Assembly (NCBI GenBank): GCA_021806205.1
Contig: JAJZXX010000251.1
Coordinates: 1-33,337 of the forward strand
DNA length: 33,337 nucleotides
DNA from: Bacillota bacterium
Lineage (GTDB): Bacteria > Bacillota > Sulfobacillia > Sulfobacillales > Sulfobacillaceae
Direction of reading: 5' to 3'
A program made the translations under genes and the position numbers. Below, piece by piece: positions 20,345 through 33,289 of this stretch. Below the pieces are notes generated by a model. That model was given only the letters and a program-made list of their open reading frames with translations. It had not been told where the DNA came from and ran no database searches. Within the stretch, counting starts at the first letter, position 1. Every line of letters starts with the position of its first letter.

Positions 20345-20440
20345 GGGGGTAGGTGGAGGCTTGGTGCCTTCCTTGGACTTCAAATCCAATGGCCGGCTTT
20401 AGAAGTCGGCGGTGGGTTCGATTCCCACATATCCCCGCCA
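20345..20440 (+). tRNA. selC: Selenocysteine tRNA (anticodon TCA)
   Basis: The 96-nt gene includes an encoded CCA. The acceptor is 8 bp (GGGGGTAG with ATATCCCC; one G-U and one terminal mismatch). The D arm is AGGC-TTGGT-GCCT with outer pairs possible. The anticodon stem TTGGA/TCCAA holds the loop CTTCAAA, giving anticodon TCA. The long variable arm is a 6-bp stem (GCCGGC with GTCGGC). The T arm is GTGGG-TTCGATT-CCCAC. The 8-bp acceptor, long variable arm and TCA are diagnostic of tRNA-Sec, so this organism should decode UGA as selenocysteine, with SelA and SelB genes elsewhere. Its 3' end is also a plausible attachment site, since mobile-element genes begin directly after it. Confidence 0.95.
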
Positions 20441-20449
20441 AACTCAAGT

Positions 20450-20473
20450 CCCGCAAGCGATTGCGGGTTTTTT
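20450..20473 (+). terminator. Intrinsic terminator after tRNA-Sec
   Basis: CCCGCAA and TTGCGGG form a 7-bp stem around GCGA, followed by TTTTTT. It starts 10 bp past the tRNA CCA and terminates the tRNA transcript. Confidence 0.9.
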
Positions 20474-20684
20474 ATTTGACGCACTATATCCCCAAACCTG
20501 CTCCCCAACCATGCCGACATCCACACAACCATCCACATGAACAGACAGACAGGGCCATACGCCAGCGATATCCAGCACGCGGTGTGAACACCATCGGACC
20601 CGTCCCAAGCAAATTGTCTCCCGATCCACACACTCGATCCACAGCGAGAAAGGACGGCAGGCGCACCGTCCCTTTCGTGATGGC
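20474..20684. other. Non-coding start of the mobile-element region
   Basis: No gene is supported. A 6-bp stem (GGACGG/CCGTCC at 20652-20671, flanked by AAA and TTT) may end the minus-strand repressor transcript. If the tRNA is the attachment site, the element's left end lies in the first bases of this stretch. Confidence 0.4.
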
Positions 20685-21589: not shown

Positions 21590-21772
21590 ATGACAAGCAC
21601 AACGGACGAACCGCGTTTTCTCAAAGTAGCGGAGGTGGCAACGATTTTGCGGGTGAGCCGACCCCACGTGTACCAGTTGATCCATGACGAAGTGATCCCG
21701 GTCGTGCGGCTGGGCGATACCTTACGCATCCCGCGCCGCTGGCTCGACCAGCAGCTTGAGATCACCGAGTAG
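21590..21772 (+). CDS. Excisionase/MerR-like small HTH protein
   Basis: This 60-residue protein reads 'LKVAEVATILRVSRPHVYQLIHDEVIPVVRLGDTLRIPRRWLDQQLE', the winged-helix HTH_17 pattern of excisionases and AlpA-type regulators. Such proteins bend DNA at attachment sites or start element gene expression. The start is preceded by AAAGGGGG. Being divergent from the XRE gene and close to the putative attachment site fits an Xis or activator role. The integrase it would assist is not in the window. Confidence 0.8.
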   Translation: MTSTTDEPRFLKVAEVATILRVSRPHVYQLIHDEVIPVVRLGDTLRIPRRWLDQQLEITE

Positions 21773-21970: not shown

Positions 21971-24148
21971 ATGGAGGAAAACGAAAACCCCACCGGCTTC
22001 ATCGGCGGGGAGACATCCAGTACACATAACATTAATAATAGTATACCACAAGCCGAACCGGCAGACAATCCCTGGGTTGAGGCATTGTCCGATCAGATTC
22101 AGTCGTCCGACAGCACGACGCTCATTGAGATCCTGTTCGCCCCGGATATCCTCGATGAATTGAACGTACTGGAAGCGGCCAACCCCGGCACTTACATGCG
22201 GATTCGACAAGCGTGTCAAGCCCAAAAAATCCCCGTGGGGAAGCTCGAAGCGGCCATGCGCGAACGCAAGAAGGCTACGGAACGCGCTCGCGCGGAGGGA
22301 GCCGCCGAAGCTCGACGACAGCAGTTTTACGCAATGCAAGGCAGCATGGGCCTCCCGCTCCCTGCGGGGTGCGCGATTCCCGCAGGGTACCGTGTGGAAC
22401 CCGGGGAAACAGCGAAAGTCGATCCGGAGGTGGGGTCTATCGCGATTGCGCCCGCAGGATTAGCGATTCTTACGAAATACTGCGACATCGACACGGAACG
22501 GACACACGTGCAAATCGGTGCATGGTTTGATGGCGCAAACACATGGCACACCGTGGACGTGCCGCGTCAAACCATCGCCAACACAACGCAAATCGTGGGC
22601 CTCGCGGACTACGATTTTCCGATCAACACCCTCAACGCAAAATCGGTCATCGAATATCTTGCCGGGTACGAAACAAAAAACCGCCGTGCGATTCCGACCC
22701 AACAAACCTCGGGGCACCTCGGATGGCAAGTGAGCCATGGACGGCCTTTAGGATTCTTGGCCGGCCCGGAGACGTGGATCGGCCTCAAACCCGGCGAGGA
22801 CGTGCGATTTCTGCCAGCAAACCCCGGTGACGGGCAAGTCGCGGAAGGCTTTACGAGTGCTGGCGACGTGGACGCCTGGATACGCGAAGTCGGCCTGCCG
22901 ATTCTTCAATACCCGAAAGCCGCCGTGGGGCTCTTGACGAGTTTCGCAGTGCCCATGCTCACGGTGCTCCATCATCCCAATTTCGTAGTGGACTTCGCGG
23001 GCGTAACGAGTCAGGGTAAGACCACCGCGCAACGGGTCGCGGGAAGCGTGTGGGGCAATGTAGACGAATCGGAACCCGAACGCAACGTGATTCAATCGTG
23101 GAATGTGACGCAGGTTGGGGCCAGTGAAATGGGTCGAATTTTGAGTGGACTTCCGATGATCATGGACGACAGCAAAACGGCGCGGAATGACAAGAGTGTC
23201 ACGCAAACGCTGTATCTCGTCACCAACGGCAAAGGTCGGGCCAAGGGCGCGAAAGAGGGCGGCATGAAAGCGGCCCCGACGGTGAAGACCATCCTCATTT
23301 CCAGTGGAGAAAAGCCCATCACCCAGTTCACCAAGGACGGCGGCATTCGGACACGGGTATTGGTGGTGGAAGGCTCCCCGTTCGGCGTGGTGGACGACGC
23401 GAGCCGGATTATGGTGCAACGCCTCACGACCAGTTGCGCCGACCACTACGGTGTGGCGGGACCGACATTCGTGGAGTGGCTAGTGAACCACCTGGCGAAC
23501 GACTGGAAGACGTGGACGCAGGCCTACCACACCGCCAAGACGCACTACACCAGCCAGGCCCAGTCGGCCGGGAAAGGACGACTCATGGCCCATCGGGCCT
23601 TCTTGGAGACAGCGGCAGCGTTAGTCGGACAAGCGTTGCCCGACTTGGCGCGGGGGATTCAAGCGTTGTTGCAGAGCCCCGACTGGGACGACCTCTGGAC
23701 CGCAATGACCGCGCAAGCGGGCGACCCGCTGGACGCCCAACTCGCACTGGAACAACTCGGCAGCTGGATGCAGAGCCACATTGAGCTGTTTGAGGGACAA
23801 CGCAATCCCGATGCCTTTGCGCCAACCGAATGGCTCGGGAAGTGGACGGACGATCAAATTGCGGTGTTCCACCATGCGGTGGATCACCAACTCCAGGAGT
23901 GGGGCTATGACCCGCAAGCGATCATCGCGCAGTGGCGGTCCAAGGGGTGGCTATGCCCGGGAGAAGGTCGATATCTCAACCCAAAAATTACCATCATGGG
24001 TCAACGGGGACACAATGCGTATGTATTATCGGCTACAGGGAAGACCATCGCCTTGACGAATTCAGAATCTACAACATGGGATGACGATGCAGAAGAAGAA
24101 GTAGAAGTGGTGCAGCAAGGCCAAGAAGACATGGCTTATCCGTTTTAA
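21971..24148 (+). CDS. DUF927-type replicative helicase-like protein
   Basis: The 725-residue protein fits the DUF927 family found in phages and integrative elements. The N-terminal 110 residues are helical and charged. The core has 'HLGWQVSHGRPLGFLAG', then a Walker A-like 'GVTSQGKTT' (344-352, Lys350), a Walker B-like 'LPMIMDDSK' (Asp399-Asp400) and 'KTILISSGEKPI' as a sensor strand. 'GGIRTRVLVVEG' supplies candidate arginine fingers. Such proteins are thought to be ATP-driven DNA helicases paired with primases. ATG 21971 follows AGGAGG by 8 bp. It precedes a large iteron array and, 2 kb on, a primase gene, supporting a replication role. Confidence 0.8.
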   Translation: MEENENPTGFIGGETSSTHNINNSIPQAEPADNPWVEALSDQIQSSDSTTLIEILFAPDILDELNVLEAANPGTYMRIRQACQAQKIPVGKLEAAMRERKKATERARAEGAAEARRQQFYAMQGSMGLPLPAGCAIPAGYRVEPGETAKVDPEVGSIAIAPAGLAILTKYCDIDTERTHVQIGAWFDGANTWHTVDVPRQTIANTTQIVGLADYDFPINTLNAKSVIEYLAGYETKNRRAIPTQQTSGHLGWQVSHGRPLGFLAGPETWIGLKPGEDVRFLPANPGDGQVAEGFTSAGDVDAWIREVGLPILQYPKAAVGLLTSFAVPMLTVLHHPNFVVDFAGVTSQGKTTAQRVAGSVWGNVDESEPERNVIQSWNVTQVGASEMGRILSGLPMIMDDSKTARNDKSVTQTLYLVTNGKGRAKGAKEGGMKAAPTVKTILISSGEKPITQFTKDGGIRTRVLVVEGSPFGVVDDASRIMVQRLTTSCADHYGVAGPTFVEWLVNHLANDWKTWTQAYHTAKTHYTSQAQSAGKGRLMAHRAFLETAAALVGQALPDLARGIQALLQSPDWDDLWTAMTAQAGDPLDAQLALEQLGSWMQSHIELFEGQRNPDAFAPTEWLGKWTDDQIAVFHHAVDHQLQEWGYDPQAIIAQWRSKGWLCPGEGRYLNPKITIMGQRGHNAYVLSATGKTIALTNSESTTWDDDAEEEVEVVQQGQEDMAYPF

Positions 24149-24224
24149 CAACCTCTCCGACGATAGAGACTCCATAACAAAACATGGAGTCTCTTTTTGT
24201 GGAGACCTGTTTTTTGTGGAGAGC

Positions 24225-24327
24225 TGTCATACAAATACAGCAGATGTCATACAGCCTGTCCTACAGATCGTCATACAAAAATCTCCGAAAATCGCATGGT
24301 TACGCCATTCGTCATACATGTCATACA
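24225..24327 (+). repeat. Left half of iteron array, TGTCATACA repeats
   Basis: Six copies of the 9-bp motif lie in the same orientation: TGTCATACA at 24225, 24245 and 24319, TGTCCTACA at 24257, and CGTCATACA at 24269 and 24310. Spacings are 20, 12, 12, 41 and 9 bp. The last two are directly abutting. Such repeats are usually binding sites for an initiator or regulator protein. Confidence 0.85.
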
Positions 24328-24446
24328 TTTTTGCGCATCACTGTCTTATATATCGAAAGACAATGCAAGGATATAGGTTGGGGCATCCAGTACAAGAAGG
24401 AACACTATATTCCTTTCCGCCTCACGTGACGTAGTGGTAAAAAATA

Positions 24447-24550
24447 TGTATGACTTGTATGACAGTATCTAAGAAACCGCATAACCCCGCGGGGTTGCGG
24501 GATCGGGGATGTATGACGATCTGTAGGACAGGTGTATGACATGTATGACA
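24447..24550 (-). repeat. Right half of iteron array, inverted copies
   Basis: Six copies in the opposite orientation: TGTATGACT at 24447, TGTATGACA at 24456, 24533 and 24542, TGTATGACG at 24510 and TGTAGGACA at 24522. Counting outward from the core, copies 3 to 6 carry the same variants in the same order as the left half. Positions 24510-24542 and 24244-24277 form a 33/34-bp near-perfect inverted repeat differing by one base. Confidence 0.85.
24483..24496. repeat. Perfect palindrome AACCCCGCGGGGTT
   Basis: A 14-bp self-complementary sequence inside the right half of the array, in its 54-bp gap. It has no counterpart at the mirror position in the left half. Confidence 0.6.
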
Positions 24551-24947
24551 GTACCTTTCTCCCTTACGTAAGTAACTATCCTAAATCCATGAATAGGAAG
24601 GGAGAAATGGTGGATCAGATGGTTCGGGATCTATCCTGGATGATCGTTGTTTTGGTTTCTTCTGACATTATCCTAATATTCTGATTTTATGACTGCATCT
24701 CCGACCCCCTGCCGCACTTTCACACGTTACTGCGGCGCAGAGCCGACGCAACCGTTCGCCGGACGGTCGCTGGTCTTTCCCATACCCACATTCTGCTATT
24801 GCTGGTAAAGATTAGGCTCATGTTGAAAAATGTCGGAAAAAATTTTCGGTACAGTGTATCTGGAGTCTCTAGAGTATCATCCTGTTTATTCCGTTTCTGG
24901 TGTTTTTTGACGAAGGACGCAACTCGGCGCTACTCTATTAATGGGGC

Positions 24948-24991
24948 GCAAAACGGGTGCAAAACTGATGCAAAACGGGCGCAAAGCGGGC
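24948..24991 (+). repeat. Four tandem 11-bp repeats (GCAAAACGGGY)
   Basis: GCAAAACGGGT, GCAAAACTGAT, GCAAAACGGGC and GCAAAGCGGGC follow one another without gaps. One repeat per helical turn is typical of iterons bound by an initiator. The period is not a multiple of three, which argues that selection is on the DNA and not on the open frame that crosses it. Confidence 0.7.
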
Positions 24992-25062
24992 GAAAGGCCC
25001 GGATCTGCCCGGACGATGAAAAATTTAAAGAGCGGACATCTTAAAAACTCGGGGGAGGCGAA

Positions 25063-25902
25063 GTGAAAGTGGGATGGGCACGACCAAGTGAAGTGGAGGA
25101 AGCTCTAGGGGCATTCCATTCCGCGCTGAAGCGCGGAATGCACGAGGAAGAAGCGTTTTCGATTTTGCCCGAGCTATCGCGCAATCATCGCAAAACGTTG
25201 ATGGCGATTCTACGCAGGGAAGGGATCAAATCCAAACATCCCGGCGGCGGGCACGGGGACCAGCGCGACGTGCTAACCCGACAGGTCCGCGAAATCGCGC
25301 AAAATGCCGCTTTGCAAATCCGATCCCTCAAGCGCATCATCCGAGAAGAATCGAAAGCCCAGGGAACCCTGCTATCCCGGGACGAAAAGGAACTCCTGGT
25401 CGACGCATTCCACTCCTCTCCCGGACAGAAACTCAGCATGAACCATCTTTATCACGCGCACTCCGCGACTGCTCATATTGTGTCGCGACTCGAAAACGCG
25501 CGACAAGAGTCGGAGGACAACGCCCGGTATGTCGAGGAACTTCGATTCGAAGCGTTGATGAAAATCGAAGAGTTGCTGGAGCGGGCAGCCGCTCCGGCGG
25601 CGATCAGCGCGAAGCACATGAGCTATGCTATCCGGGCACTCGGCATCCGATACAGCGAGCCTCCCACCTCATCCGGATGGAAGGGCGAACGCCAGCCCCC
25701 GGGTGCCATCCCCATCGACCTCGACGGCGACGACGATCTGGCGTGGCGCACCGAAAACCCCGAAAACATTGCCCAGCGCCGCTCGCATCGATCCGGAAAA
25801 CGATGGTCTCCCCGAGGGAGCGCCGATGGCCGAGCGCTAATGTGGCATGCTCTGGTAATGATTGGCGTCGCGGCAGCGACGATCATGATGTTGGGGCGGT
25901 AA
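25063..25902 (+). CDS. Hypothetical helical protein with C-terminal membrane anchor
   Basis: I do not recognise this 279-residue protein. The N-terminal half is charged and helical and includes 'LSRNHRKTLMAILRREGIKS', which could be an HTH-like segment, then long amphipathic helices around 'SRLENARQESEDNARYVEEL'. A disordered, charged linker follows. The last 20 residues form one membrane helix (MWHALVMIGVAAATIMML). GTG 25063 follows GGGGGAGG. Placement between two origin-like repeat regions and the primase suggests a replication or segregation role at the membrane, which is inference only. Confidence 0.6.
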   Translation: MKVGWARPSEVEEALGAFHSALKRGMHEEEAFSILPELSRNHRKTLMAILRREGIKSKHPGGGHGDQRDVLTRQVREIAQNAALQIRSLKRIIREESKAQGTLLSRDEKELLVDAFHSSPGQKLSMNHLYHAHSATAHIVSRLENARQESEDNARYVEELRFEALMKIEELLERAAAPAAISAKHMSYAIRALGIRYSEPPTSSGWKGERQPPGAIPIDLDGDDDLAWRTENPENIAQRRSHRSGKRWSPRGSADGRALMWHALVMIGVAAATIMMLGR

Positions 25903-26080: not shown

Positions 26081-26134
26081 GATCGGTGGGTGTCGATGTC
26101 CGCACCGAATCCCATTAGCAGGAGGTTGTGTCCC

Positions 26135-27265
26135 ATGAACTGGAATCATCTCAATCCCGCCGACATTCGGACCACGTGGGATCTCGTGGCCACCGATGCG
26201 CCGGTGGAACTGCGTGTGTTGCGGCGGGATGGCCCGCCGAGCCTGGGACGCTTTACCCAGGCGGAAGCCTTTGAACAAGCCGTGCGCCAGGCGGATGCAC
26301 AGCCCGATACGACAGGAATCTATGTCGCGCTGAATCCCCTGCGCCCGGATGCGCCCTGGACGGGGCGGTTGAACATCCTCCGCACCGGGGGACAGGCCGC
26401 CAAAGATGGCGATATTGCATCGCGCCGCTGGCTCTTGGTGGATCTGGACCCTCGCCGTCCGGCGAAGACCAACGCGACCGATACGGAGCGTCAAGCCGCG
26501 TTTGAGAAAGCCGGCCAGATTGGTCGGACTCTTCGCCATCTCGGATGGCCCGATCCGGTGCAAGCCACATCCGGCAATGGCGCACACTTGCTCTACCGAG
26601 TCGATCTGGAAAACTCGCCGGATTCTACCTCCAAAATTCAGACGGTTCTGAAAACGTTGGCGACGCGGTTTTCGGATGAGTCGGTGGATGTGGATAGCTC
26701 CGTGTTCAATGCGAGCCGGATTTCCAAGATCTATGGCACCACGCCCAAAAAAGGGGAGCAATCAACCGACCGACCATTTCATCCGGCGCAAATTCTGGTC
26801 GCCCCGCCGCGACTTGTGCCCGTACCCTCGCGGCTGCTGGATTCGCTGCCGGCGATTCTTCTTCCGCCGGATCAACGCCCCCCCATCATCGTCCCGCGAC
26901 ACTGGAACGTGGCGCAGTCATCCCTCGCTCCGGTGGAGGATGACGCCATCCAGACATTCGCGCAGCTGCTCCGAAAGTGGGGAGTGGAGGTAACGGGACG
27001 GCCGACGCGGGGGTGGATCCCGGTGCGGTGTCCCTGGGAGCGCGAGCATTCTGGATCGAGCGGCCGTCCTCTGGAAACCGCGATCTCCCTGGCGGCCGAT
27101 GGGCGTCCCGGATTCAAGTGCTTTCACGCGCATTGCTCGGATCGGCACTTTCGTGATTTTGCCAAAATTAACCACCTACCGATCTCCTCTCGCCGCCCTC
27201 CGTTGCGACGAGCGGTCGGACACGGACACTCAGCGCACTGCGAAACCGAAGACGAGTGGGAGTGA
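26135..27265 (+). CDS. Primase of the archaeo-eukaryotic (RepB-like) superfamily
   Basis: From ATG 26135 (after AGGAGG) the product is 376 residues. The N-terminal domain shows the primase-polymerase motifs: 'RRWLLVDLDPRRP' with Asp103 and Asp105 as metal ligands, 'ATSGNGAHLLYRVDL' with His151, and 'VDVDSSVFNASRISKIYGT' with a third acidic residue and Arg195. The C-terminal part has a CHCC-like zinc site: 'VRCPWEREH', then 'GFKCFHAHCSDRHFRDF'. This arrangement is common in replication proteins of phages and integrative elements. It should synthesise primers for element replication alongside the DUF927 helicase. Confidence 0.85.
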   Translation: MNWNHLNPADIRTTWDLVATDAPVELRVLRRDGPPSLGRFTQAEAFEQAVRQADAQPDTTGIYVALNPLRPDAPWTGRLNILRTGGQAAKDGDIASRRWLLVDLDPRRPAKTNATDTERQAAFEKAGQIGRTLRHLGWPDPVQATSGNGAHLLYRVDLENSPDSTSKIQTVLKTLATRFSDESVDVDSSVFNASRISKIYGTTPKKGEQSTDRPFHPAQILVAPPRLVPVPSRLLDSLPAILLPPDQRPPIIVPRHWNVAQSSLAPVEDDAIQTFAQLLRKWGVEVTGRPTRGWIPVRCPWEREHSGSSGRPLETAISLAADGRPGFKCFHAHCSDRHFRDFAKINHLPISSRRPPLRRAVGHGHSAHCETEDEWE

Positions 27266-27574: not shown

Positions 27575-28519
27575 ATGAAAATTGCGATCGACGCCGGACA
27601 CGGCTACACGAAAGCGCTGGCCGCGAGTGGGGCGCGCGTGCTGTTCCCGAGCCTGATTGCCCCCGCGCCGAAGGGCGGTATAGACCTAGGCGAGTGGGAA
27701 CGACACAGTGAACGGGGACGGGTGGTGCTGGATGACCAGGAGTTTGTGTACGGGGAGTCCGCGCGCCGCCTGGCTACGCCGTTGTGGAGTCGGGAAAAGG
27801 CGGCCGATTCGGATGCGGCGCGTTTTATCTTGATTGCGGTCGGGCTCCTCGGAGCCGTCGGCCCCGTGCAAATTGCCGTCGGCCTGCCGCTTAGTTGGTT
27901 TGCGAGCCAACGCAAGGAATTCAAAGTGGCGCTCATGGGATATGGTGCCCGAATAGCCTTCCCCGAGCAAGGTATAGGGAGCCAGCGCATCTGGATTGAT
28001 GCGGTGACGGTGTTGCCCCAAGGCGTCGCCGGGGCAGCCGCCACCTTGGGGGCGACTGTCAGCGCCGTTCCAGAGTCGTGGATCGTCTTGGACATTGGCT
28101 ACCGTACCTCGGATTTTTGTTGGCTCGACCGAGGCGAGCAGGGCAAGTTGGATTTCGAACGCGAGCGGGCGGGCACATTAGAAATCGGCTACCACGACGT
28201 CGTGGAACAAGCCCGCCAAGAACTGGAACGTACCTATCATCTGCCCTTTCGCGAAGCCGAACTCGAATCGGCCCCGACGGTGATTGTCCGCGGACAACTG
28301 GTGGATGTCAGCGCGTTGCGGCACATGGCCACTCGGGCCGTCGCCCAACGGATGGCGCAAGAATTACAGATCCGGTTGGGGGATGGTCTCGACCGGGTGA
28401 CGGGTGTCTTGCTCGTCGGCGGCGCGGCGGAGCCATTCGCGGACCACTTTCCTTGGCCGACCCACGTGGCGAATGATAGCCAATGGGCGAATGCCATTGG
28501 TTACTTGGCCGTTCTCTAA
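27575..28519 (+). CDS. ParM-like actin ATPase (plasmid segregation)
   Basis: The 314-residue protein has the actin-fold ATP motifs: phosphate 1 'IAIDAGHGYTKA' (3-14), phosphate 2 'WIVLDIGYRTSDF' (about 168-180) and the adenosine motif 'LLVGGAAEPF' (279-288). It belongs with ParM/StbA and the ALP group. It would polymerise into filaments that push sister copies apart. GGAGCGTGAATTCGG precedes the start. A small ParR-like gene and palindromic repeats follow, completing a type II partition layout. Confidence 0.88.
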   Translation: MKIAIDAGHGYTKALAASGARVLFPSLIAPAPKGGIDLGEWERHSERGRVVLDDQEFVYGESARRLATPLWSREKAADSDAARFILIAVGLLGAVGPVQIAVGLPLSWFASQRKEFKVALMGYGARIAFPEQGIGSQRIWIDAVTVLPQGVAGAAATLGATVSAVPESWIVLDIGYRTSDFCWLDRGEQGKLDFERERAGTLEIGYHDVVEQARQELERTYHLPFREAELESAPTVIVRGQLVDVSALRHMATRAVAQRMAQELQIRLGDGLDRVTGVLLVGGAAEPFADHFPWPTHVANDSQWANAIGYLAVL

Positions 28520-29862: not shown

Positions 29863-30265
29863 AATCCGGTTGCCCGTCGATATGGCCGCAGCGGTTCGGA
29901 CTCTAGCCGGTGACCGTGACCAAAGCATGAATGCTTATGTCACGCGGGCGATTCGCACCCAACTGATTGCTGACGCCACGGCAATGGAGGCCGGTAGCCT
30001 GATGGCACTGATCGAACAGGCCAACCAACCCCTGACCCGCTCAGCAAACTTTGCCGCTGTCCACGCCGCCGCGACCCTGGCTTTCGTGCGCGAATGGGCG
30101 AAAGATAGCTACATGGTAGCGGGACTGCCCGAAGACATGGCTCAGGAGAAAGCACAACTGTTAGCTGAAAATGCGTTGGACGAGGCGTTGGCCGTGTTCG
30201 AAGATCCCCGCACGCTCCATCAGTTCGGCTGGATCGAACGGCCAGACGACGACACCGACACCTAA
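29840..30265 (+). CDS. Second ribbon-helix-helix-type protein
   Basis: From ATG 29840 (after GGAAGGAGAA) the product is 141 residues. The N-terminal 'ELKIRLPVDMAAAVRTLAGDRDQSMNAYVTRAIRTQL' is an Arc/MetJ-type ribbon-helix-helix. The rest is helical with an acidic C-terminus. It overlaps the preceding gene and is 31 bp upstream of the relaxase, so all three are likely one transcript. Two adjacent ribbon-helix-helix genes may form a heteromeric relaxosome factor, or one may regulate the other. Confidence 0.7.
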   Translation: MTKTTELKIRLPVDMAAAVRTLAGDRDQSMNAYVTRAIRTQLIADATAMEAGSLMALIEQANQPLTRSANFAAVHAAATLAFVREWAKDSYMVAGLPEDMAQEKAQLLAENALDEALAVFEDPRTLHQFGWIERPDDDTDT

Positions 30266-30296
30266 TCTCGTGATTACAAAGAAAGGAGATTCTATC

Positions 30297-32462
30297 ATGC
30301 CAGCTCAGCCATTTATCATGCGTCTGCATTTTTACCTGCCGACCGGGACGGGCTTGCACAGCCTCGCCAGCGGAGCGCACCACGTGGCCTATGCTGGATC
30401 GAAAGAAAAGGCCGAGCTCATGATCGGAAGGCTGCTGGCCGAAAGCAACCGCAACAGTCTCGAAAGCGCCGCCATTCACGCCCGGTACGCGGGCGAGCGC
30501 GAAGGCTCTCTCGGCTACTTCGGCTCGATGGCCGACGATCCGAAAGGCGCGCAAAAAAGCATTCTTGCGGCCCAAGGCCCCGTGTGGCGGGTGATCAACA
30601 CTGTCGGCGAGGCGGACGCTCTAGCGATGGGCGGCGACCTGACCACCAAAGACGGCTGGGAACGAGCGTCAAAGCCCGTCGTGACCAAGATGATTAAAGA
30701 ACTCGGTCTCGACCCCGCGAAGGTGCAATGGATTGCCGCCGCTCACCGACACCAAAAGCACGAACACAACCCGCATATCCATTTGCTGATTTGGGAGACT
30801 GGAGAGGAGCCAACCCGCAAAACCGGCGAATGGTCGGATGCCGAACGCCGGGCCATTCGCAAGGCGTGGATCAGTGAGCTTTACCGTCCTGAGCGCCAAG
30901 TGTTGGGGAAGGAGAAAAGCGAGGCCCGGACCGAGGCCCGGAGCGCGTTGATTGACTTGGTAGCCCGCAAAAACGAAATGCAAGGATTCAATCGCGAGCT
31001 TACCACCCGCCTGGCCACACTGGGCAAAATGCTCCCGGGTCGAGGCCGGCTGGCTTACGCCTTTATGCCCCCAGAGATCAAAGCGAAAACAGAAGAAGGG
31101 ATCCGCTGGCTCTGGGATCAGGACCCCGGCCTCAAAACGCAACATGATCGGTATCTCGAAACCGCCGAGCGCATGGGCACGTTCTACTGGCACCAAGACC
31201 CCGAGAAAACGCAAAACACCCCCGGACGCCAAGAGGCCTTGGACCGGATTCGCCAAAACGCTGAGCACGATCTAATCCAACGCTTGGCCGCACCGATTCT
31301 TCGAGCGGCCCGCCAGCAAGCGTGGGCGATAGCCCGAGATGAGTACCGCGAAGCCAGCGCCAGTGTCCGGGTATTTTTGCGCGACGAGACCCAGGCAGAG
31401 CGATTAGACCCGTGGATTCGGCGGTTCAAGCGGGAAGGTTCGACTGACGGCGCATTGATTGATCTCGTGAGGTCGGCGAGGAATTGGCCTGAACGTGACC
31501 AATGGCTAGAAGATTGGCTAGCAGCATCGGAAGAATTATCCGAGTGGGCCGGCGGCGAGACCGGACTGCAGGCATGGGATACCGTGATCCAGTCCGTGGT
31601 CCAGGGAGCGGCAAGACAACGCCAGCGGGAAGAGTTGGCCGAGCAGTGGGAGAGCATTGTCAACGATCCCGACCACCCCGAGATCAAAGATCGCCTGTGG
31701 GCTATCGCGGAGGAATACGCCACGTCGGCCCGGACGACTCACGATTGGATCAGTGCGGTGGAAGCATATCATGTCACCCTGCCGACACTATCCTTGGCCG
31801 GCGGCGACCTCGCTGACCAGCGATTTGCCCGACACCTGGCGCACCACGTGGAATGGCTCGATGAACATCGGGCGATTGCCGCCGTGGTCAGCCGGGCTGA
31901 CCTGCGCCGGGCCCGCACAGACCCGGACGCGATCATTGATCGGGTGATTCGCGAGAGTCCGACACTTCAAAAACTGTGGGACACCGCGGGGATTACCGTA
32001 AATTGGCAACGCCCGTTTACCTACCGATATGCGCATGATAATGCCGATGGCGAGTGGGAATTCACCGAACGAGAATTTAAGACTCGCACCGGTGCTTTGT
32101 TATCGGCCACCTTTTCCGATCGGTTCGAGGCGACGGCCTTCGCGGCGATCTGGCCACCAGCCGAACCGCCACCGGGCATTCAAGCCAGCATGTTTGACCG
32201 CGAGTCACATCGGCAAGAGCAAGAGCAAGCCCGCGCGGCCTTGCGAGAGCGTGTGGGCAAGCATATCACGAGTATCGGCTATGAGTGCGGCGTCTATCGT
32301 CGTGCGTCCGGCCCGGATCTGATTGGCGCACTCCACCGGATCATGTGGCGAGCCGAGCACGATGCCCGCGCGACGGCTTACTGGCTGGCCGAGTCCCAGT
32401 GGCAACGGAAGAAAGCCGAATCCGCGATCGCCCGGTCGGCCGGCCAAGAAATCGCGCAGTAA
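30297..32462 (+). CDS. MobL-family relaxase
   Basis: From ATG 30297 (after AAAGGAGAT) the product is 721 residues. The N-terminal 170 residues match MobL/MobP relaxases: 'HARYAGEREGSLGYFGSMAD', 'GPVWRVINTVGEADALAMGGDL', then the metal-binding histidines 'AAHRHQKHEHNPHIHLLIW' (His150, His160, His162). The catalytic tyrosine is probably Tyr64 or Tyr74. The enzyme nicks the transfer origin and pilots the strand. The C-terminal 450 residues are a long helical, charged region I do not recognise; MobL proteins are usually shorter or carry other domains. Confidence 0.85.
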   Translation: MPAQPFIMRLHFYLPTGTGLHSLASGAHHVAYAGSKEKAELMIGRLLAESNRNSLESAAIHARYAGEREGSLGYFGSMADDPKGAQKSILAAQGPVWRVINTVGEADALAMGGDLTTKDGWERASKPVVTKMIKELGLDPAKVQWIAAAHRHQKHEHNPHIHLLIWETGEEPTRKTGEWSDAERRAIRKAWISELYRPERQVLGKEKSEARTEARSALIDLVARKNEMQGFNRELTTRLATLGKMLPGRGRLAYAFMPPEIKAKTEEGIRWLWDQDPGLKTQHDRYLETAERMGTFYWHQDPEKTQNTPGRQEALDRIRQNAEHDLIQRLAAPILRAARQQAWAIARDEYREASASVRVFLRDETQAERLDPWIRRFKREGSTDGALIDLVRSARNWPERDQWLEDWLAASEELSEWAGGETGLQAWDTVIQSVVQGAARQRQREELAEQWESIVNDPDHPEIKDRLWAIAEEYATSARTTHDWISAVEAYHVTLPTLSLAGGDLADQRFARHLAHHVEWLDEHRAIAAVVSRADLRRARTDPDAIIDRVIRESPTLQKLWDTAGITVNWQRPFTYRYAHDNADGEWEFTEREFKTRTGALLSATFSDRFEATAFAAIWPPAEPPPGIQASMFDRESHRQEQEQARAALRERVGKHITSIGYECGVYRRASGPDLIGALHRIMWRAEHDARATAYWLAESQWQRKKAESAIARSAGQEIAQ

Positions 32463-32521: not shown

Positions 32522-33289
32522 GTGAACCAACAAACCGCCAAAGCTCTGATCGGCGGGGCCTTCGGCGCGATTCCGGCTTGGGCGATCGGCATGGAGTTGG
32601 CCGACGTGACGGCGGGCGTCATTGAACCCATCGCCCGGCACATGAAAGCCGCGAAGGCGTCTGGCCACCCCGGTTTCAGCGGTGTCGGCACCATTTGGCA
32701 TGGATGGGTCAGTAGCCATGCCTACCTGCCGACGCACTGGGGTGTCCTCTTGGGCCACCCGGATTTGCTAGTCGGCGCGTTGGGGTTGGGTTGCCTCGCC
32801 GGGGGATTGGTCGCGCTCAAATCGGCCAAGTCGAGTGGGATCAGTTTCTGGGGCGGACCCGCCAGCGCCGGCAAGGGCCAATACGGCACCGCGCACTGGC
32901 GAGTTCCCAAGAGCCTCAACGAGAGCTACCAACGATGGAGTGCCCCGGTAATCAAAGACAAAAAGGCCCTGGCGCTCAAGACGGTCGATGAGATCCGCAC
33001 AGACGCCGACGCGATTCACGCCAAGTGGGTCAAGAACGGACAAAAAGGTCCTGAGCCCACCATGCCGAAAGTCGGATTGCTGGTTGGGCTCGACACTGAG
33101 AAAAACCCGCTGGCTGGCTGGATTTTAGAGCGGGACGAACATGCGCTGATTCTCGGGTCCACCCGGAGCGGCAAGACGCGCCGCCTCATTATTCCGAGCG
33201 TGGGCATTATCGGGTCCACGGCCACGGAGAGCCTCGTTGTGACAGACCCCAAAGGTGAGCTCGTGCGCGTTGTTCCTACACAGCGCTAA
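32522..33289 (+). pseudogene. VirD4/TraG coupling protein, interrupted after Walker B
   Basis: GTG 32522 follows AAAGGGGG. The frame encodes 247 residues of a type IV coupling protein. There are N-terminal hydrophobic segments (about 8-24 and 83-99), 'GTAHWRVP' (the family's start of the ATPase part), Walker A 'LGSTRSGKTRR' (212-219) and Walker B 'LVVTDPKGEL' (242-247). The natural product, about 600 residues, would continue 'Y..TA'. Instead the sequence switches at 33263 to GTGCG and reaches a stop at 33289. The start of the interruption looks like a group II intron, so the gene may still be functional after splicing if its second exon lies beyond the window. Confidence 0.75.

Follow-up and report, generated by a model that had tools for sequence, protein, structure and literature searches.

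A mirror-arranged iteron array downstream of a DUF927 helicase gene as a probable replication origin of a putative Sulfobacillus conjugative element

Related replication origins and the layout of the array

Classical iteron plasmid origins consist of direct repeats next to an AT-rich region. SaPI origins are located just 3' of rep (PMC7581432, PMC6092414), and the SaPI/PICI origins are made up of two iteron sets around an AT-rich region (PMC6092414). According to the literature on SaPI/PICI elements and their SCC relatives, Rep, apparently in the form of two hexamers, uses its C-terminal domain to bind the iterons, and plasmid replication is driven by pri-rep-ori. Cch, a DUF927 protein, is related to SaPIbov1 Rep, and no SCC origin had been known prior to the work on Cch2 (PMC7581432).

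We analyzed a contig stretch of 33,337 nt, referred to as the window, in which an earlier note, made from the sequence alone, had described twelve 9-bp iterons, six facing each way, at 24225-24550. This description is accurate: there are exactly 12 TGTCATACA-type iterons with at most one mismatch, six per strand, and all of them face inward across the core. The entire window contains 13 such matches (at most one mismatch) versus 3.8 expected, a number reached in 0 of 100 shuffles of the window. The core between the inner iterons, previously given as 120 bp, measures 119 bp and has a GC content of 40% compared to 57% for the window. The features of the region are as follows, with identities given relative to L003, a Sulfobacillus benefaciens contig.

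24165..24194, + strand: intrinsic-terminator-like hairpin (11 bp stem, T tail) in the interval between the helicase gene and the array
24225..24327, + strand: left arm with six iterons pointing inward (an outer cluster of four, a gap of 32 bp and an inner pair spaced 9 bp), 96% identical to L003; iteron starts 24225, 24245, 24257, 24269, 24310, 24319
24244..24277, + strand: 34-bp block, inverted repeat of 24510-24542 with one indel
24278..24309: left gap between the outer cluster and the inner pair, conserved, with a weak second motif
24328..24446: core, proposed melting region; inner ends 24328-24349 and 24422-24446 conserved, middle diverged
24447..24550, - strand: right arm with six iterons pointing inward (an inner pair spaced 9 bp, a gap of 45 bp and an outer cluster of four), 97% identical to L003; iteron starts 24447, 24456, 24510, 24522, 24533, 24542

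The symmetry of the array is real for some of its properties and incomplete for others. If T, C and A denote the first base of NGTCATACA and V denotes TGTCCTACA, the variants read outward from the core are T,C,C,V,T,T in the left arm and A,T,C,V,T,T in the right arm, so that copies 3 to 6 do carry the same variants in mirror order (C,V,T,T), as had been claimed. The chance of at least four of six variants matching in mirror order is P = 0.083 and that of positions 3-6 all matching is P = 0.017; by itself, the mirrored variant order is modest to weak evidence. The near-perfect inverted repeat between 24244-24277 and 24510-24542 was also reproduced (97% identity), and the 23-nt exact inverted block common to both arms is rarer than the variant order, being equalled in only 4 of 2000 spacer-shuffled arms. 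The start-to-start spacings, on the other hand, mirror each other only in part (outward, 9/41/12/12/20 on the left and 9/54/12/11/9 on the right). The mirror symmetry proposed earlier thus holds for orientation and for variants 3-6, but not fully for spacing.

Apart from the iterons, the gaps 24278-24309 and 24465-24509, as well as the gaps of other arrays, contain a second motif, often resembling CCnGAAAnC..CCTTG..CAAGG. It is similar between the arms in both directions, since left and right gaps are alike both when mirrored and when compared directly (mean z 1.6 and 2.2, a difference that is not significant). The idea that gaps generally form hairpins was rejected, as the mean fold z was only -0.5 over 47 gaps.

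The array begins 77 bp downstream of the DUF927 helicase gene (stop at 24148, first iteron at 24225). It had been placed between this gene and a primase gene; the helicase is indeed upstream, but the next substantial gene is an ORF for a 279-aa protein (25063), and the primase-like ORF follows only after it (26090). As in SaPI/PICI rep-ori, the array lies immediately 3' of an initiator gene, here one whose product is homologous to SaPI Rep, and has two iteron sets with an AT-richer core between them; unlike there, all twelve copies face inward. PT1028, a SaPI-like PICI, has the same inner pairs, gaps and outer clusters, although its iteron is AGTTCCC rather than TGTCATACA. Classical iteron origins share with the array the multiple short repeats and an initiator as the binder, the latter being our proposal for this locus. 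However, instead of repeats in a single orientation there are six iterons on each strand, which oppose each other from the two sides of the core, and the initiator is itself homologous to hexameric helicases.

The neighboring helicase and the carrier element

The gene preceding the array encodes a DUF927 protein with a Cch-type C-terminal domain:

21971..24148, + strand: DUF927/Cch-type initiator helicase, SaPIbov1 Rep-like, 725 aa (PF06048, 2.8e-29; PF18662 'Cch helix turn helix', HTH_56; both above cut-offs)

A PDB profile search with 34 relatives matched just two solved structures, 8tch (1e-109) and 5dgk (2.3e-46), which are the SaPIbov1 replication initiator (Rep) and the SCCmec Cch helicase, respectively. 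The AlphaFold model obtained from the alignment of 34 sequences (pLDDT 86.8; a single-sequence model with pLDDT 38 was discarded) was compared with known structures using VIA-align. Homology to SaPIbov1 Rep extends over most of the helicase length (8tch, Z 34.2, residues 136-698). The Cch helicase of SCCmec pattern 1 (5dgk, Z 32.9) is likewise a DUF927 AAA+ helicase with the Cch HTH domain, and both top matches span about residues 127-700, including the C-terminal domain. The next fold rows are MCM cores (Z 13.3); the rows below the top two represent the common MCM AAA+ core and imply no closer relationship. The AAA+ motor motifs, by our own reading, are visible in the helicase alignment (Walker A GKTT, Walker B DD). 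Judging by the modeled fold, the helicase belongs with the MCM-like initiator helicases SaPIbov1 Rep and SCCmec Cch. It differs from SCCmec Cch in scoring far below the cut-off of the NCBIfam Cch1 equivalog NF047345 (68.7 bits versus 700) and in its surroundings, as no ccr large serine recombinase was recognized among the window proteins searched, which represent an incomplete element; one serine recombinase domain is present on another contig (C134). The genome also contains a decayed second DUF927 helicase (L019, contig C159, 9817-10934), 61-71% identical and interrupted by TAG and TGA stops. No array was detectable at this copy, which is a remnant of a related element.

The most likely binder of the array is the C-terminal HTH domain of the adjacent helicase (about residues 590-662). 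The XRE, small HTH and 279-aa proteins, which had been put forward as candidates for footprinting, are less likely in this role.

Further features of the element carrying the array are listed below.

20345..20440, + strand: tRNA-Sec gene marking the left limit of the element, apparently its integration site (ARAGORN, Rfam)
21590..21772, + strand: excisionase-like helix-turn-helix protein (TIGR01764, 43.5 bits, above cut-off; HTH_17)
25063-25902: 279-aa protein, no family match except a weak ANTAR-like stretch; hydrophobic C-terminus
26090..27265, + strand: primase-like protein with weak LigD Prim-Pol similarity, candidate priming partner (PF21686, E 0.0023, below cut-off; phrog_3228 helicase-primase, E 0.002)
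27575..28519, + strand: actin-like plasmid segregation (ParM-type) protein (PF17989, 4.9e-17; PF21522, 3e-15; phrog_691, 1.3e-27)
30171..32462, + strand: MobP3-like relaxase (NF041499, 9.9e-37, 127 bits, cut-off 150)
32522..33289, + strand: VirD4/TraG-type coupling protein, N-terminal part, near the contig end (PF02534, above cut-off; NF045973, 3.3e-11)

The chromosomes of relatives are homologous to the window up to about 20457. The contig stops within the element and does not reach its right end. Partial copies of the 3' part of tRNA-Sec also lie at other sites in genomes of the genus, that of the window among them, which fits the expectation for a used integration site. The carrier differs from SaPI/PICI elements in encoding a relaxase and a coupling protein, and genes for phage packaging were not recognized among the proteins searched in the part of the element on the contig. 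No integrase was recognized in the window, the contig ending within the element. Considering the relaxase, the VirD4-type protein and the tRNA-Sec limit together with these gaps in the gene set, we regard the carrier as a putative integrative conjugative or mobilizable element rather than a PICI or an SCC element.

Several copies of the tRNA-Sec 3' part, 65-92 bp long, are located away from the tRNA gene (L079, L080-L083), two of them 4.9 kb apart in L083; from their sequences, tRNA-Sec looks like an integration hot spot in the genus. Exact copies of a terminator-like 27-bp sequence that follows tRNA-Sec (20451-20478) are present at several genomic positions as well as in L003.

Conservation and recurrence of the plan

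The nearest relative of the locus is L003, whose helicase is 80% identical and whose array has the same variants plus a thirteenth copy. All iteron bases (108/108) are identical between the two arrays and the spacers are 92-94% identical, whereas the middle of the core is 61% identical, close to the value for helicase third codon positions that served as the neutral yardstick (60.5%). The 22-25 bp at the inner ends of the core are again conserved (100% and 92%). Gene conversion could homogenize the arms within an element but not between elements, and therefore selection on both arms is the simpler reading. The comparison of the two sequences thus supports the earlier suggestion that the array is maintained by selection.

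When the region is aligned with homologous elements, a check that had been recommended, the repeats persist in L003, and more diverged helicases keep the plan with changed iterons. Helicases from the same bacterial family with 34-38% protein identity are followed by arrays of other iterons such as TGCCCCAC or TGTTACTAC, and the helicase of a Geobacillus plasmid (31% identity) is accompanied by TGTCACAAC arrays. We surveyed 94 DUF927 loci from genomes, plasmids, phages and viral contigs with a 7-mer detector that looks for tandem pairs facing each other at a distance of 75-135 bp and flanked by additional copies, and requires at least 10 copies. An earlier 8-mer mirror score had missed AT-rich cases such as PT1028, and the plan-based score was used in its place. 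The mirror plan with at least 10 copies was found in 33 of the 94 downstream regions, compared to none of 91 control stretches taken from upstream and 7 of 3760 shuffles; as the form of the detector was chosen after several arrays had been seen, the claim rests on these controls and not on absolute scores. PT1028 (the positive control), phages, the Geobacillus plasmid and plasmids of Streptomyces are among the positives. At this threshold, the plan is not seen at about two thirds of the loci, some of which may be explained by divergence, truncated loci or a motif missed by the detector. Viral contigs scanned with the helicase alone yielded no close relative, and the exact 21-bp array pattern was absent from them.

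Across the surveyed arrays, the modal total is 12 copies and the modal count per arm is six (24 of 52 arms), which is a mode and not a fixed number. In the common plan, the copies are spaced 9 bp in the inner cluster and 10-12 bp in the outer cluster, and the start-to-start gap between the clusters is near 32, 43 or 54 bp; the outer copies point inward in some elements and outward in others. The spacing at L124 is nearly mirror-perfect (9 and 43, followed by 11 and 10 in one arm and by 10 and 11 in the opposite arm). The earlier note considered the symmetry to be unusual. This is not supported for the present initiator family, in which it is expected: SaPI/PICI origins have two flanking iteron sets (PMC6092414), and the same plan lies downstream of many DUF927 helicases. 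The origin type is known from SaPI/PICI, while its spread well beyond PICIs and the 6+6 numerical regularity are added here.

Origin function and alternative explanations

We consider it highly probable that the array is a replication origin of a mobile element, recognized in cis by the helicase encoded just upstream. Our analysis establishes the array and how well it is conserved, what the helicase is and which fold its model has, and that the plan is associated with DUF927 helicases; binding, melting and replication are inferred from relatives. The origin role proposed in the earlier note is well supported and very probably right, given the identity of the helicase, the position of the array and the plan in relatives; what counts against it is the only moderate AT-richness of the core and the share of surveyed DUF927 loci, about two thirds, at which the plan is not seen. 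Taken together, our analysis leads us to conclude that the array is very probably a rep-ori of the SaPI/PICI kind on a putative conjugative element next to tRNA-Sec.

Other explanations would have to account for the same observations. A regulatory looping site, with the arms serving as operators through which the XRE or a small HTH protein controls downstream genes, is improbable. The element does encode several HTH proteins, and spaced inverted operator sets can loop. However, no sigma-70-like promoter was found in the array or beside it, the hairpin terminator after the helicase gene fits the end of an operon, and the plan tracks the DUF927 helicase across elements with diverse neighbors. 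Less probable again is an origin of transfer or a relaxosome accessory site for the MobP3-like relaxase. The presence of this relaxase and of the VirD4-type protein would agree with it, as would one weak fold row in which a short segment matches the relaxosome accessory protein of pCW3, but the array adjoins the initiator gene, is 5.6 kb away from the relaxase gene and has counterparts of the same plan in PICIs, phages and small plasmids typed as non-mobilizable.

The symmetry might also have been left behind passively when one arm was duplicated in inverted form, and itself serve no selected function. Both arms do share the 23-nt exact and the 34-bp near-exact block, spacers included; yet they are 96-97% conserved between two elements in which neutral sites are about 61% identical, and elsewhere the same plan is built from different iterons. 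We consider a mere relic less probable than either a looping or a transfer site. Least probable of all is a parC-like site at which the actin-like ParM system would act in partition. Such sites can consist of repeat arrays, and the ParM-like gene is 3 kb downstream, but the array lies beside the helicase gene in an inward mirror layout, and the plan also occurs at helicase loci without an annotated ParM neighbor.

If the array is a replication origin, the C-terminal winged-helix domains of the helicase would bind the iterons, and each inward-facing arm of about six sites would position one hexamer, so that two hexamers would face each other across the core. They could jointly constrain and melt the core and then unwind in both directions, with synthesis primed by the nearby primase-like protein or by host enzymes. 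We infer one iteron per helicase subunit, six per arm suiting one hexamer; in the proposed mechanism the sites are mirrored because their inward polarity loads two opposed rings. It is conceivable, though we advance this only tentatively, that the mirror array represents a geometric template common to DUF927/Cch initiators. Such a template would have about six iterons per arm, one per hexamer subunit. About 3, 4 or 5 helical turns would lie between an inner pair or triplet, spaced 9 bp, and the outer cluster, and two facing rings would assemble around a core roughly 85-120 bp long. The plan would then belong to an initiator family present in phages, plasmids, conjugative elements and satellites and would not be special to PICIs.

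The locus provides a mobile element of the acidophile Sulfobacillus with a concrete candidate origin, from which replicating vectors for these bacteria could be built. The recurrence of the plan beside DUF927 helicases in plasmids, phages and a putative conjugative element links it to the initiator. The survey also yields numerous natural variants on which to study how two opposed rings are set up on DNA by a self-loading, MCM-like helicase.

Two minor observations concern the region following the array. In L003, a 322-aa relative of the 279-aa protein is encoded just downstream of the array. In the window, four to five direct 11-bp repeats GGGCGCAAAAC in a single orientation (24944-24992) are located 70 bp upstream of the gene for the 279-aa protein; they were not seen in L003 and are possibly an operator of this gene or a coding repeat.
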